Positions 2,103-40,044 of a DNA stretch of 64,000 nt are shown here, one piece after another. A program made the position numbers and the translations under genes. The notes under the pieces are model-generated. The model did no database searches. It saw nothing but the letters and a program-made list of their open reading frames with translations, and was not told the DNA's origin. The first letter of the stretch is position 1; each line of letters opens with the position of its first letter. Source of the DNA: Gloeomargaritales cyanobacterium VI4D9 (GTDB lineage: Bacteria > Cyanobacteriota > Cyanobacteriia > Gloeomargaritales > Gloeomargaritaceae); assembly GCA_927797885.1 (NCBI GenBank), contig OV696605.1:1153157-1217156 (forward strand). Reading direction: 5' to 3'.

Positions 2103-3210
2103 CACAAGTGTTGAATCCTGCAACAAAACTTTACATATTGAGGCGTGGGATGACCCGATTGAGCCAATGGACAAAATTCCACTCCTGCCGTATTAAAATT
2201 TGTATATATCGCAACTTATCTACTAATTTACTTCCATACATCCGTGGAGCTTTTAATAGTTGCAATATCAAATAAACTATGAGAATTACGTCAATTTGAA
2301 TCATAATTCCGTTCAAATTTTTACTCATCATTTTATCGAGTTTCAAGTGCGTCTTGAGAAACGTCCATAGTACCTCTATCGCCCAGCGTTGTCTGTAGGC
2401 TTCCCCTATCTCTTCATTACTCATTACATGCTCAGGAATATTGGTAGCTAAATAATAATCTACTTTCTGTTGAACATTACCGAAACAGACCACCCTTACG
2501 TTACCCCGTTTGGTGCTGATACGATAGTTTTCATACCATTTCCAATTCGACTTAATACGGATAATGAAAAGAGCGTCATTTTCGATAAACTCATCAAATA
2601 CTTTGTGACTGCAAAACCCTCTATCCCCGACTGCGACTCCATTTTCCGGCAATATTTTCACAATATCTTCACCAAAATTAATCTCATGTGCCTGTCCAGG
2701 ACTAACGATTAAATGACCCGTGGATTTCGTATCTTGATTCAAAGTAGTTATTAACTTCACTTGACGATAGCCTTGGAGCCAAAATAACTTACTCATCAGC
2801 GGTATTACGGTAGCATCAAAAGGACATAAAACCAACCTCTTTTCAGGATGAGCTTCCTCAATATAATGCAATAATTTATGATAAAGATGCATAAAAATTT
2901 GTGGGTCTCTTGTCTTGTTCGCCTTAGAAAACGTGGATAAGTCAACCTTAATGCCCGCATGATTTAATTGGTAAAATAAGTCCCGTAAACTGTTGATTCC
3001 TTTGTCTAAAATGCCAGCAAACCAGATTGAACAAAATAAGCGAGAATTTAGAACTGGATAATCATTAGTTGGCAGGTCTTTGAGTAAAAATTTGACAATC
3101 CCGGGAAAAGAATTGAATTTCATAGTTGTTTCATGTTTTGGTTTATATGAATTAGAATACCATATTTTGACCCCTCTTTTTCTGCCTTTACCTACCTTTC
3201 AACACTTCTG
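2103..3210 (-). mobile_element. IS4-family insertion sequence, copy 1 (1108 bp)
   Basis: The element is bounded by imperfect inverted repeats: CACAAGTGTTGAA at 2103 and its near complement TTCAACACTTCTG ending at 3210. It is flanked by a 9-bp direct repeat ATCTGCACC at 2094-2102 and 3211-3219, the target-site duplication. It holds one minus-strand transposase gene. A second copy of exactly the same length lies at 38829-39936 in the opposite orientation. This copy sits inside the 3' part of the response-regulator gene. Confidence 0.95.
2131..3123 (-). CDS. IS4-family DDE transposase
   Basis: A 330-residue transposase. Catalytic residues visible: Asp103 in CPFDATVIP, Asp167 in VAVGDRGF, and the YREK signature of the IS4 family as Tyr243, Arg246, Glu250 and Lys257, with exact Y-2-R-3-E-6-K spacing. 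It is intact, so it is potentially active. It differs from the copy at 38916-39908 at a scatter of residues (for example Asp178-Glu versus Glu-Gln), so the two copies are not the product of a very recent duplication. It would cut and join the CA-ended terminal repeats of its own element. Confidence 0.93.
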   Translation of the reverse strand: MKFNSFPGIVKFLLKDLPTNDYPVLNSRLFCSIWFAGILDKGINSLRDLFYQLNHAGIKVDLSTFSKANKTRDPQIFMHLYHKLLHYIEEAHPEKRLVLCPFDATVIPLMSKLFWLQGYRQVKLITTLNQDTKSTGHLIVSPGQAHEINFGEDIVKILPENGVAVGDRGFCSHKVFDEFIENDALFIIRIKSNWKWYENYRISTKRGNVRVVCFGNVQQKVDYYLATNIPEHVMSNEEIGEAYRQRWAIEVLWTFLKTHLKLDKMMSKNLNGIMIQIDVILIVYLILQLLKAPRMYGSKLVDKLRYIQILIRQEWNFVHWLNRVIPRLNM

Positions 3211-3211
3211 A

Positions 3212-3502
3212 TCTGCACCAGTTGAAGCCACAGAAATGCAAGCGTTAGCCAACAAATTAGTCAATATCGAAACCCTATTGATCCAGGGGATTGAGGGGCT
3301 GGTGCAAAGGGAAATTGTCTCCCGGCTCATGGAATTGGATGCCCAGGGCGAATCCCAGGAAAATCGCCTGAGTCATTTGGAAGCTCGGACGGAGCGGTTA
3401 CAGTTACAATTGGATCAGCAAAACAAAATTTTACTGAGTATTGTGAGCGAAATTCAGCAATTGCACACCCTGTTGAGTCGTGTGAATTATGTCCGCTCCT
3501 GA
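3212..3502 (+). pseudogene. Detached C-terminal coiled coil of the response regulator
   Basis: This is the 3' fragment of the response-regulator gene at 1679, cut off by the IS. Read across the target duplication, its frame is continuous with the upstream gene once the 20-bp duplication is ignored. It contains an internal ATG at 3236 that could give an 88-residue peptide of helical, Glu/Gln/Leu-rich heptads, suited to oligomerisation. There is no Shine-Dalgarno sequence before that ATG, so independent translation is doubtful. Its stop overlaps the start of the nblB-like gene by 14 bp, showing that the two genes were once translationally linked. Confidence 0.8.
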
Positions 3503-4305: not shown

Positions 4306-4427
4306 GGACACCTCTATATAATTCGTGGCTATTGAGAATGACTCCCGCGTTATTGATCATTGCCAACCAAAGAATGGGGCTTCCACGCCTACCGTGTAAG
4401 CACAAAAATCAATAAATAGAGGTGCCC
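4306..4427. repeat. MITE family A, copy 1 (122 bp)
   Basis: Starts GGACACCTCTAT and ends AATAGAGGTGCCC, matching the terminal repeats of the IS5-type elements at 23739 and 36371. The interior is closely related to the element at 12825-12945 and has no coding capacity. It lies in a gene-free stretch (4158-4616) together with a family B repeat; I see nothing else there. A clean target duplication is not evident. Confidence 0.8.
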
Positions 4428-12824: not shown

Positions 12825-12945
12825 GGACACCTCTATTAATTCATGGCTATTAAGAATGACCCCCGCGTTATTGATAATTGCCGACGAAAGAATGGGACTT
12901 CCAAGCCAGTCATGTAAGTACAAAAATCAATAAATAGAGGTTCCC
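12825..12945. repeat. MITE family A, copy 2 (121 bp) with TTAA duplication
   Basis: Starts GGACACCTCTATTAATTC and ends AATAAATAGAGGTTCCC. It is flanked by TTAA at 12821-12824 and 12946-12949, a 4-bp target duplication of the same length as that of the IS5-type element. It is non-coding. This is the cleanest MITE copy in the window. Confidence 0.85.
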
Positions 12946-23418: not shown

Positions 23419-23820
23419 ATGACCGCTTCTTTTCCCGTTGAAATCCGCCATCAGGGGCAAGTGACCACCATTCTGGCTCCGGCAGACCAAACCATCCTTG
23501 CCAGTGCCGTTGCCGCCGGTTTGGATTTACCCTCTTCCTGTACAGCGGGTATCTGTACGACCTGTGCCGCCCGTTTGCTCAGTGGTACGGTGGCGCAACC
23601 GGATGCGATGGGGTTGAGTCCGGCTTTGGTCAACCAGGGGTTCGCCCTGTTGTGTGTGGCCTATCCCCGCTCAGCCATTACTTTGGAAACGGAGCAGGAA
23701 GAAACCGTCTATGAATTGCAATTTGGGCAATTTCAAAAGGGCACCTCTATTTATTCAAAATATGAGAACGAAACACAAAAACAGCATAGCATTGCTCAGT
23801 ACTTTTTTGTACTAAGATGA
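23419..23820 (+). CDS. [2Fe-2S] ferredoxin with IS-encoded C-terminal tail
   Basis: Plant-type ferredoxin with the four cluster ligands: CTAGICTTC (C-x4-C-x2-C) and the last Cys in ALLCVAYP. The native protein ended ...GQFQK followed by TAG. The IS5-type element inserted exactly at that last codon: the native AAAAG-TAG sequence now lies at 24982-24989, beyond the element. The current frame continues 26-27 codons into the IS left end and stops at 23820, giving 133 residues instead of 107. The cluster-binding fold is complete, so the protein may still work, with an added tail. I chose the ATG at 23419 by comparison with other ferredoxins. Confidence 0.88.
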   Translation: MTASFPVEIRHQGQVTTILAPADQTILASAVAAGLDLPSSCTAGICTTCAARLLSGTVAQPDAMGLSPALVNQGFALLCVAYPRSAITLETEQEETVYELQFGQFQKGTSIYSKYENETQKQHSIAQYFFVLR

Positions 23821-24981
23821 CTGGGTTTTATAGATTGCTGTAGATATGATTGAAAAGAGACTTAGTAGGGGGTCAAAACTCACAGATTATCGGCCAGGGA
23901 CTGCCGCTCCCAAAACGCATAACGGCGGAAATTATAAGCCAGATTTTTCAAACCAATTGCCGCTTCTACTCTGGTTTTACCAATCAGACGCATGAATTTA
24001 CCCCCAAGACACATCACCCACTGACCAAATACGTGTTCCACCTTGGCTCTCACTTTAGATTTGATGCGATTCTTTTCATTTTGCTCTGCGGTTAGGGGCT
24101 GATTTCGGTAGCCTTTTTCATGGATGTGACTGGTAAATCCAATCCTGGCTAACGTCCATTCTAAATCCGTGCTGTGATAGGCACTATCTCCCCAGATTTC
24201 CGACCCATCAATATCCACCAGTTGACTGAATACTTGTGAGTCATGCACGGAGGCATCCGTGACCACATAATGACGCACAAAACCATATTTTACATCCACA
24301 CTGATATGATTTTTATAGCCAAAATAGCTGACACCATTTTTCTTTACCCAACGGGCATCTCTATCCTTTTGCCGTAAAACCTGGGGTTTTTCCTCCCATT
24401 GCTTAGGAATTTTCCCTTCCTTTACTTCTTGATTTTCTTGCCGAGTATTTCGTTGGACTGGCACGGGAATGAGAGTGGCATCCACAATCTGACCAACTTC
24501 GACAATATATCCTTTTTCTCTCAGGTAATTATCAAAGTGAGCAAATACTTCTTTGACTAGATCGTGCTTGGCGAGATTATCCCGAAATAGCCAGACCGTT
24601 TTGGCATCAGGGATAGCGTCTTCGATACCCAATCCTAGGAATTCCATGAACGAGATACGGTCATTCACTTGAAACTCGAGTTCATCGTCACTAAGGGCAT
24701 ACATTTGTTGGAGAATCAACAATTTAAACATCACAATGACGTCGGTGGGTTTTCGACCCGCATTACTCTTTCTTTCCTTGTCATATATGGTTTCTAATAT
24801 GGGTCGGAAATCTTCCCAGTTAATATTTTCATTGAGCCACTTCAGCATGGGCTTTTTCTGATTGAGTTTTTCCCGCCGCTCTTGCTCATCCCAAAATCCT
24901 TTTTGACCCATTTTCCCTCTCCACGTCGTTAATACTAATTATCTCACAAATCCCTCCCAAAATCAATTAATAGAGGTGCCC
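23739..24981 (-). mobile_element. IS5-family insertion sequence, copy 1 (1243 bp)
   Basis: Terminal inverted repeats GGGCACCTCTATTTATT at 23739 and AATTAATAGAGGTGCCC ending at 24981. It is flanked by AAAA at 23735-23738 and 24982-24985, a 4-bp target duplication. It carries one minus-strand transposase gene. The second copy at 36371-37613 has the same length and differs by only a few bases that I can see, so transposition is recent. Insertion removed the stop codon of the ferredoxin gene. Confidence 0.95.
23880..24911 (-). CDS. IS5-family DDE transposase
   Basis: A 343-residue transposase of the IS5 group. The N-terminal DUF772-like region (AGRKPTDVIVMFKLLILQQM) is followed by the DDE triad: Asp144 in QIVDATLIPVP, Asp242 in IWGDSAYHS, and Glu292 in RAKVEHVFGQ. 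The protein is identical to that of copy 2. It is intact. It probably also mobilises the family A MITEs, which share its terminal repeats. Confidence 0.95.
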   Translation of the reverse strand: MGQKGFWDEQERREKLNQKKPMLKWLNENINWEDFRPILETIYDKERKSNAGRKPTDVIVMFKLLILQQMYALSDDELEFQVNDRISFMEFLGLGIEDAIPDAKTVWLFRDNLAKHDLVKEVFAHFDNYLREKGYIVEVGQIVDATLIPVPVQRNTRQENQEVKEGKIPKQWEEKPQVLRQKDRDARWVKKNGVSYFGYKNHISVDVKYGFVRHYVVTDASVHDSQVFSQLVDIDGSEIWGDSAYHSTDLEWTLARIGFTSHIHEKGYRNQPLTAEQNEKNRIKSKVRAKVEHVFGQWVMCLGGKFMRLIGKTRVEAAIGLKNLAYNFRRYAFWERQSLADNL

Positions 24982-36225: not shown

Positions 36226-36370
36226 GATTTGGGTATAGCTAGGTAGGTTAAATTCATGGCTACGCCACGCAAGCTATGGGGAAACCAATGTGGGGCTACG
36301 CCCAGCGACCCATATCATGTCAACCTTTGTATGCTTAGCTATAGTAATGAAACAAGGGCACCTCTATCAA

Positions 36371-37613
36371 GGGCACCTCTATTTATTCAAAATATGAGAA
36401 CGAAACACAAAAACAGCATAGCATTGCTCAGTACTTTTTTGTACTAAGATGACTGGGTTTTATAGATTGCTGTAGATATGATTGAAAAGAGACTTAGTAG
36501 GGGGTCAAAACTCACAGATTATCGGCCAGGGACTGCCGCTCCCAAAACGCATAACGGCGGAAATTATAAGCCAAATTTTTCAACCCAATTGCCGCTTCTA
36601 CTCTGGTTTTACCAATCAGACGCATGAATTTACCCCCAAGACACATCACCCACTGACCAAATACGTGTTCCACCTTGGCTCTCACTTTAGATTTGATGCG
36701 ATTCTTTTCATTTTGCTCTGCGGTTAGGGGCTGATTTCGGTAGCCTTTTTCATGGATGTGACTGGTAAATCCAATCCTGGCTAACGTCCATTCTAAATCC
36801 GTGCTGTGATAGGCACTATCTCCCCAGATTTCCGACCCATCAATATCCACCAGTTGACTGAATACTTGTGAGTCATGCACGGAGGCATCCGTGACCACAT
36901 AATGACGCACAAAACCATATTTTACATCCACACTGATATGATTTTTATAGCCAAAATAGCTGACACCATTTTTCTTTACCCAACGGGCATCTCTATCCTT
37001 TTGCCGTAAAACCTGGGGTTTTTCCTCCCATTGCTTAGGAATTTTCCCTTCCTTTACTTCTTGATTTTCTTGCCGAGTATTTCGTTGGACTGGCACGGGA
37101 ATGAGAGTGGCATCCACAATCTGACCAACTTCGACAATATATCCTTTTTCTCTCAGGTAATTATCAAAGTGAGCAAATACTTCTTTGACTAGATCGTGCT
37201 TGGCGAGATTATCCCGAAATAGCCAGACCGTTTTGGCATCAGGGATAGCGTCTTCGATACCCAATCCTAGGAATTCCATGAACGAGATACGGTCATTCAC
37301 TTGAAACTCGAGTTCATCGTCACTAAGGGCATACATTTGTTGGAGAATCAACAATTTAAACATCACAATGACGTCGGTGGGTTTTCGACCCGCATTACTC
37401 TTTCTTTCCTTGTCATATATGGTTTCTAATATGGGTCGGAAATCTTCCCAGTTAATATTTTCATTGAGCCACTTCAGCATGGGCTTTTTCTGATTGAGTT
37501 TTTCCCGCCGCTCTTGCTCATCCCAAAATCCTTTTTGACCCATTTTCCCTCTCCACGTCGTTAATACTAATTATCTCACAAATCCCTCCCAAAATCAATT
37601 AATAGAGGTGCCC
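36371..37613 (-). mobile_element. IS5-family insertion sequence, copy 2 (1243 bp)
   Basis: Same ends, length and orientation as copy 1 at 23739-24981: GGGCACCTCTATTTATT at 36371 and AATTAATAGAGGTGCCC ending at 37613. Target duplication TCAA at 36367-36370 and 37614-37617. It is inserted near the left end of a family A MITE, about 15 bp from the MITE terminus. Confidence 0.95.
36512..37543 (-). CDS. IS5-family DDE transposase (copy 2)
   Basis: A 343-residue protein with the same sequence as the copy at 23880-24911, including Asp144, Asp242 and Glu292. At nucleotide level a few substitutions are visible near the 3' end, for instance in the ATTTTTCAAACC/ATTTTTCAACCC stretch. Intact and potentially active. 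Confidence 0.95.
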   Translation of the reverse strand: MGQKGFWDEQERREKLNQKKPMLKWLNENINWEDFRPILETIYDKERKSNAGRKPTDVIVMFKLLILQQMYALSDDELEFQVNDRISFMEFLGLGIEDAIPDAKTVWLFRDNLAKHDLVKEVFAHFDNYLREKGYIVEVGQIVDATLIPVPVQRNTRQENQEVKEGKIPKQWEEKPQVLRQKDRDARWVKKNGVSYFGYKNHISVDVKYGFVRHYVVTDASVHDSQVFSQLVDIDGSEIWGDSAYHSTDLEWTLARIGFTSHIHEKGYRNQPLTAEQNEKNRIKSKVRAKVEHVFGQWVMCLGGKFMRLIGKTRVEAAIGLKNLAYNFRRYAFWERQSLADNL

Positions 37614-37773
37614 TCAATTCAAAGTTAGCAGTCGCAGCGCCCTTGGTTCTGGGGAATATGGGCATTCCCACGATGGGATTGATGATTGGTTCAAATAAAT
37701 AGAGGTTCCCACAAAATAGAGTATAGTGCTAATGTGGCAATCACATTTATTGTTCTTGTCAAGGAAATTAACC

Positions 37774-38644: not shown

Positions 38645-38659
38645 AGGGTCAGGTAGAAC

Positions 38660-38760
38660 TATAGCAGTCTTAAATGAAAATGGAACACAGGCCGCAGGGG
38701 CACCACCCCCCTCTTTCGTTCTGGGGAATTTCCGTCCGTTAATTAAGTAGGATTGCTATG
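38660..38760. repeat. Repeat family B, copy 4 (inverted)
   Basis: Reads TATAGCAGTCTTA on the left and AAGTAGGATTGCTATG on the right, with the core as the reverse complement of copies 1-3. It lies 68 bp upstream of IS4 copy 2. Ends are slightly degenerate. Confidence 0.7.
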
Positions 38761-38828
38761 GTAAAAAATTCTATCCTTAGAACACGAATATCCTAGAGAA
38801 CGAAAGGCGGAAGCTATATCTCTGCAAT

Positions 38829-39936
38829 CAGAAGTGTTGAAAGGTAGGTAAAGGCAGAAAAAGAGGGGTCAAAATATGGTATTCTAATTCATATAAACCA
38901 AAACATGAAACAACTATGAAATTCAATTCTTTTCCCGGGATTGTCAAATTTTTACTCAAAGACCTGCCAACTAATGATTATCCAGTTCTAAATTCTCGCT
39001 TATTTTGTTCAATCTGGTTTGCTGGCATTTTAGACAAAGGAATCAACAGTTTACGGGACTTATTTTACCAATTAAATCATGCGGGCATTAAGGTTGACTT
39101 ATCCACGTTTTCTAAGGCGAACAAGACAAGAGACCCACAAATTTTTATGCATCTTTATCATAAATTATTGCATTATATTGAGGAAGCTCATCCTGAAAAG
39201 AGGTTGGTTTTATGTCCTTTTGATGCTACCGTAATACCGCTGATGAGTAAGTTATTTTGGCTCCAAGGCTATCGCCAAGTAAAGTTAATAACCACTTTGA
39301 ATCAAGATACGAAATCTACTGGTCATTTAATTGTTAGTCCTGGACAGGCACATGAGATTAATTTTGGTGAAGATATTGTGAAAATGCTACCGGAAAATGG
39401 AGTCGCAGTCGGGGATAGAGGGTTTTGCAGTCACAAAGTATTTGAACAATTTATCGAAAATGATGCCCTTTTTATTATCCGTATTAAGTCGAATTGGAAA
39501 TGGGATGAAAACTATCATATCACCACAGAACGAGGTAAGGCGAGAGTAGTTTGTTTTGGCAATGTTCAACAGAAAGTAGACTATTATTTAGCTACCAATA
39601 TTCCTGAGGATGTAATGAGTAATGAAGAGATAGGGGAAGCCTATAGACAACGCTGGGCGATAGAGGTACTATGGAAATTTCTAAAGATGAACTTAAAGCT
39701 CGATAAAATGATGAGTAAAAATTTGAATGGAATTACCATTCAAATTTATGTAATTTTAATAGTTTACTTGATATTGCAACTGTTAAAAGTTCCACGGATG
39801 TACGGAAGTAAATTGGCAGATAAGTTCCGATATATACAAATCTTAATACGGCAGGAGTGGAATTTTGTCCATTGGCTCAATCGGGTCGTCCCACGCCTAA
39901 ATATGTAAAGTTTTATTGCAGGATTCAACACTTGTG
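38829..39936 (+). mobile_element. IS4-family insertion sequence, copy 2 (1108 bp)
   Basis: Inverted repeats CAGAAGTGTTGAA at 38829 and TTCAACACTTGTG ending at 39936, with a 9-bp target duplication CTCTGCAAT at 38820-38828 and 39937-39945. Same length as copy 1 at 2103 but in the opposite orientation, and diverged by a few percent. It lies between genes and breaks no evident frame. Confidence 0.95.
38916..39908 (+). CDS. IS4-family DDE transposase (copy 2)
   Basis: A 330-residue transposase with Asp103, Asp167 and the Y-2-R-3-E-6-K signature (Tyr243, Arg246, Glu250, Lys257) intact. Compared with copy 1 it differs at about twenty residues, mostly in the second half. No frameshift or stop. Either copy could supply transposase for both. 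Confidence 0.93.
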   Translation: MKFNSFPGIVKFLLKDLPTNDYPVLNSRLFCSIWFAGILDKGINSLRDLFYQLNHAGIKVDLSTFSKANKTRDPQIFMHLYHKLLHYIEEAHPEKRLVLCPFDATVIPLMSKLFWLQGYRQVKLITTLNQDTKSTGHLIVSPGQAHEINFGEDIVKMLPENGVAVGDRGFCSHKVFEQFIENDALFIIRIKSNWKWDENYHITTERGKARVVCFGNVQQKVDYYLATNIPEDVMSNEEIGEAYRQRWAIEVLWKFLKMNLKLDKMMSKNLNGITIQIYVILIVYLILQLLKVPRMYGSKLADKFRYIQILIRQEWNFVHWLNRVVPRLNM

Positions 39937-40044
39937 CTCTGCAATTAATTTTTAGAGGTGTCCTTGACAAATTCTGACCAGGAATGGCATGATTGATTTC
40001 GTTTCTGAATCAAGTTAGTAAAACCTATAGAGGATGTGATTAGC

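Follow-up and report, generated by a model that had tools for sequence, protein, structure and literature searches.

An autonomous IS5-family insertion sequence nested within a MITE with related ends in a Gloeomargaritales cyanobacterium

The locus described here is an autonomous IS5-family insertion sequence (IS) nested within a short non-autonomous element (MITE) whose ends are related to its own, each of the two elements bearing its own target duplication. The whole structure, read both directly and by script from one outer ACAA to the other, lies at positions 36352-37714 of the window, that is, of the whole 64,000-nucleotide stretch of DNA that was analysed. Two successive ordinary cut-and-insert events, first of the MITE and then of the IS, would account for the locus with a probability of roughly 0.93. 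The nesting itself, together with a separate 4-bp duplication for each element (ACAA and TCAA), had been proposed in a first-pass annotation and is confirmed to the exact base.

The left copy of the outer duplication, ACAA, occupies positions 36352..36355 and is followed on the plus strand by the first 15 bp of the MITE (36356..36370), which form the outer left end GGGCACCTCTATCAA and agree with intact copies found elsewhere (L002 and L078, see below). Within these 15 bp the 11-bp left terminal repeat GGGCACCTCTA (36356-36366, plus strand) runs directly into TCAA, the left copy of the inner duplication (36367..36370). The IS then extends over 1243 bp on the minus strand (36371..37613) between the ends GGGCACCTCTATTTATT and AATTAATAGAGGTGCCC and carries a transposase gene of 343 amino acids with DUF772 and DDE_Tnp_1 domains (36512..37543, minus strand). 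The right copy of TCAA (37614..37617) leads into the remainder of the MITE, 93 bp on the plus strand (37618..37710) with the right terminal repeat ATAAATAGAGGTTCCC and the final bases AATAAATAGAGGTTCCC, the last of them at 37710; the right copy of ACAA (37711..37714) closes the structure. No strand is assigned to the four duplication copies. The IS thus lies 11 bp from the end of the MITE, or 15 bp with the target included, and a repeat finder reports direct repeats on both sides of the locus, of 15 bp at the left and of 21 bp (86%) at the right. With TCAA counted once and the IS left out, the pieces outside the IS sum to a MITE of 108 bp, which is the approximate length that had been anticipated for the uninterrupted element.

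Absence of any intact copy of this MITE had been set beforehand as the result that would mark the outer ends as chance, and intact copies were found. One in the same genome (L002) is an uninterrupted 108-bp element, 91.7% identical, with the flanks TTCA/TGCA (one mismatch); another in the congener G003 (L078) is likewise uninterrupted at 108 bp, 95.4% identical, and has TTTA on both sides. These copies refute chance as the origin of the outer ends. The broader proposal, that the outer ends are either a chance resemblance or the remnant of slippage at an IS end and that no MITE is involved, draws on the left outer piece, which, at only 11-15 bp, might have arisen by duplication of 15 bp locally; however, the left 15 bp and the right 93 bp make up a full 108-bp element that is intact elsewhere and has a matching ACAA outside it here, and the proposal is almost certainly wrong.

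The genome contains 281 exact occurrences (128 + 153) of the 12-base end GGGNACCTCTAT but only 2 of its reversed control; in the window, with up to two mismatches, the end has 19 matches where 4.8 are expected. The right-hand part of the MITE, used as a query, matches at least 41 other places in its own genome at an E value of 1.5e-8 or better (40 of 334 candidates scored), while the whole locus as a query returned 50 rows in G003. End-to-end MITE copies were recognised by pattern in 26 of 59 loci (29 from the own genome and 30 from G003); a perfect 4-bp duplication is retained in seven of the 26, and the rest have diverged. Among the pattern-recognised loci a second common form measures 119-120 bp and has a longer GC-rich middle. 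The window also contains two more short elements that share these ends, each about 121 bp long, at 4306-4427 and 12825-12945.

The sequence that the MITE has in common with the IS is confined to the ends. Over 21 bp the left end of the MITE is 90% identical to the left end of the IS, and over 17 bp it is 94% identical to the right end of the IS; the only other common sequence is an exact match of 13 bp. The family is short, non-coding, bounded by inverted repeats and present in many copies, with a 4-bp duplication, and the genome also has an autonomous IS with these ends; such features characterise Type I MITEs. Because both the ends and the 4-bp duplications are common to the two elements, it can be inferred that the transposase of the IS, or one closely related to it, would mobilise the MITE family in trans. 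A literature search found no publication naming this IS or MITE, and absence from print is not claimed.

The transposase scores 270.5 bits against NCBIfam NF033581 (IS5_4 group), for which the curated cut-off is 140, and contains the DDE catalytic domain PF01609 (DDE_Tnp_1, E 1.1e-24) as well as DUF772; the putative DDE residues, assigned by motif, are D144, D242 and E292. Short terminal inverted repeats and a duplication of a constant 4 bp are likewise features of the IS5 family. The IS5 subgroup of this family has the target preference YTAR, with which duplications of the present IS such as CCCT and AAAA disagree. A scan of named genomes with the transposase recovered 66 loci, none from the source genus and the best at 61% identity, and the nearest relatives there are proteins of other cyanobacteria about 60% identical; a plasmid search gave only three weak matches, in Acetobacter.

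At least 20 complete copies of the IS between recognisable ends are present in the genome, among 30 IS loci listed (40 of 277 first-look candidates were scored, and the IS counts are lower bounds). Perfect 4-bp duplications flank 17 of the 20. By rounding, 16 of the 20 are 100% identical in DNA, as are the best 18 other IS matches. The 343-aa frame is intact in 19 of the 30 loci examined, and 13 of the 30, the nested copy among them, encode an identical transposase protein; L049, L054 and L060 have no frame with the same start as that of the nested IS. Because complete copies are so numerous, mostly identical in DNA and often furnished with an intact frame, the IS looks recently active.

A second complete copy of the IS lies in the window at 23739-24981. 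Elsewhere, in L044, a complete copy interrupts another copy of the IS that is older and has diverged (the flanks match transposase sequence). In L043 the IS stands between two imperfect direct copies (about 1316-1500 and 2746-2890 of that locus) of a stretch longer than 100 bp that has the TTAA duplication as its starting point; this stretch may have been duplicated locally during or after the insertion. The sequence GGGCATCTCTAT, which is the end of some MITE copies, also occurs within the transposase gene at window positions 36985-36996, where the minus strand encodes DRDAR. As DRDAR is presumably a conserved motif of such transposases, the likeness to a MITE end is probably a coincidence.

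The anatomy of the locus suggests an order of events. A 108-bp MITE with ends matching those of the IS would first have entered the space between two genes, generating the ACAA duplication. The autonomous IS5-family element would have followed, one copy of it inserting at TCAA, positions 12-15 of the MITE, and duplicating TCAA. The MITE would have come first because its own duplication lies outside the IS and because the IS splits it, duplicating MITE bases 12-15. It also appears older than the IS insertion, since the IS copies are approximately 100% alike and the MITE differs, at the identity given above, from L002, the nearest own-genome copy measured. Any movement of the nested IS would presumably use its inner ends, like the other 19 complete copies. 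It is the anatomy itself that gives this order, because an orthologous empty site was looked for in relatives on both flanks and not found. The DUF4335 gene on the left flank is kept in all seven of seven relatives, with 93% DNA identity in G003 (DUF3038 and DUF4335 are presumably cyanobacterial families), and the homology with G003 on this side ends at 36234, after which G003 has a different gene. For the right-hand gene, a search of the seven relatives, run without a positive control, was negative, and the DNA on that side matched the relatives in repeats only.

The first-pass annotation had further suggested that outer and inner ends could be used in combination and so mobilise new composites. 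This suggestion gained no support, as the structure is present in a single copy and its junctions have no second occurrence in eight genomes. Movement of a composite would be mechanically possible; all four ends belong to one family, a perfect ACAA flanks the outer pair, and the composites known as TIME-COMPs, which are bounded by MITEs, are known to move according to the accounts in PMC4133298 and PMC13367494. Against this, a MITE body adjoins the IS at only 1 of the 30 IS loci listed, the nested locus, and at none of the other 29. The right junction, between an end and the MITE interior (AGGTNCCCTNAATTCAAA), was found with one mismatch allowed at 14 places in the eight genomes, of which only the nested locus has the TCAA form; MITE-MITE tandems, abutting ends and chance matches account for the remainder. 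When up to two mismatches were allowed, the left junction was found at 7 places in the eight genomes (control 0); its only exact occurrence is the nested locus. Abutting ends with a 4-bp spacer number three in the own genome, two of them real (L033 and L035) and one unlike an end pair.

Left and right ends can be paired in 110 ways within the 30 IS loci, and a perfect 4-bp match is present in 27 of these pairs; each belongs to a simple element, to a broken IS copy or to the MITE of the nested locus. Only at the nested locus does a pair with a perfect duplication enclose a second element of the family, and that pair is the original MITE insertion. The other long units with perfect duplications were considered as moved composites and rejected: L048 and L056 (2360 bp each, with different duplications) are IS copies broken independently by an IS4-type element, and L049 (1427 bp) is an IS copy broken by another insertion. 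L035, in which the IS stands beside a MITE and lacks a duplication of its own, was judged by eye as a candidate larger unit, and its flanks mismatch. Whereas a TIME-COMP-like composite would be seen at more than one site with its own duplication at each, the present structure occurs once. It is thus very improbable that the IS transposase moves the nested unit as a composite, or a unit that pairs an outer end on one side with an inner end on the other. The combined use of outer and inner ends is not supported, although this is absence of evidence and no proof of immobility.

Several other repeats are found near the locus. An IS4-type element of about 1111 bp occupies window positions 38827-39937, with a transposase at 38916-39908 (NF033592, 170 bits), and a 95% copy of it lies at 2103-3212. 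The same element broke the IS5-type copies in L048 (position 1197) and L056 (position 1046), where an overlap of 9 bp is consistent with a duplication of that length. Just to the left of the IS4-type element in the window, at 38655-38760, lies a member of a further repeat family, roughly 100 bp in length, for which G003 and G004 each gave more than 40 matches.

The MITE ends have a TNAA target at positions 12-15, which is the place where the nested IS inserted, and this raises the question of whether the IS prefers the ends of its own family (TNAA/TTAA at positions 12-15), with nesting and tandem arrays as a systematic product. Three of the 20 complete IS copies (L031, L033 and L035) have another related end no more than 20 bp away, against an expectation of 0.24 from the density in all flanks (P 0.002) or of 0.42 from the density in non-coding flanks (P 0.009), the latter from a script that placed only 11 of the 20 copies in non-coding DNA and placed L033 in an ORF. 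Nested elements at the same offset are known from two further loci: in L201 one MITE has another inserted into its right end, at TAAA, and in L198 a MITE lies behind a 15-base end-like piece. Five tandem MITE junctions, in which the right end is joined to TAAATTCAAA, occur in L177 and L185 of the own genome and in L173 (twice) and L180 of G003. In these, the right end of one unit sits directly on the TAAATTCAAA of the next, whose left end is missing, as would follow from nesting and the loss of one 15-bp repeat; the L180 array has TTAA on both flanks. In L033 (1509-2880) and L035 (1501-2868) the IS directly adjoins a MITE of a second type with TTAA between them, and the neighbouring MITE in L035 has TTAA on both sides.

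The case for such a preference is countered on several points. The 20-bp cut-off was post hoc, set after the data had been seen, and captures three events, of which L035 lacks a matching IS duplication. Approximately 433 TNAA-type sites on both strands of 9,350 non-coding window bases correspond to some 21,000 genome-wide; the 281 ends make up some 1.3% of that total, and on this rough estimate about 2 in some 150 insertions would strike an end by chance. Slippage or recombination could also be the origin of the tandem arrays. The excess of IS copies near related ends is weak, and the elements may simply all favour AT-rich intergenic DNA. A preference of the IS for ends of its own family is accordingly unlikely, and the larger proposition, that ends holding their own preferred target (TNAA, 12-15) give rise to tandem arrays and multi-ended composites with ends interchangeable for one transposase, is more doubtful still. 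Self-targeting is not needed for the nested locus, for which the two successive insertions suffice.

The mechanism at the nested locus is thus ordinary and, as the evidence stands, routine mobile-element biology. Its value is that of a clean, datable case in which an autonomous IS has entered a non-autonomous relative that shares its ends; the genome has as many as 281 exact copies of this end. Were the ends shown to be self-targets, the family would offer a simple system for the origin of MITE arrays and composites.

Among known systems, the IS resembles the IS5 family (NF033581) in its DDE transposase, which scores above the cut-off, in its DUF772 and DDE_Tnp_1 domains, and in its short inverted repeats and 4-bp duplications; it differs in that the nearest proteins in named genomes, from other cyanobacteria, are about 60% identical, and in being placed in no ISfinder subgroup. 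The MITE family is assigned to no named MITE. It resembles bacterial Type I MITEs, those of cyanobacteria among them, as these are outlined in PMC3542288 and PMC10969869, in being approximately 100-120 bp long, without a gene, intergenic, in many copies and with ends common to an IS of the genome, and it shows no difference in kind from that outline. The TIME-COMPs described in PMC4133298 and PMC13367494 are MITE-bounded composites with Tn3-type ends and two whole MITE copies, and their movement has been shown. The insert of the nested locus, in contrast, is the IS itself, and movement as a composite would be possible in principle only; what the locus has in common with TIME-COMPs is the presence of several compatible ends around a larger segment.
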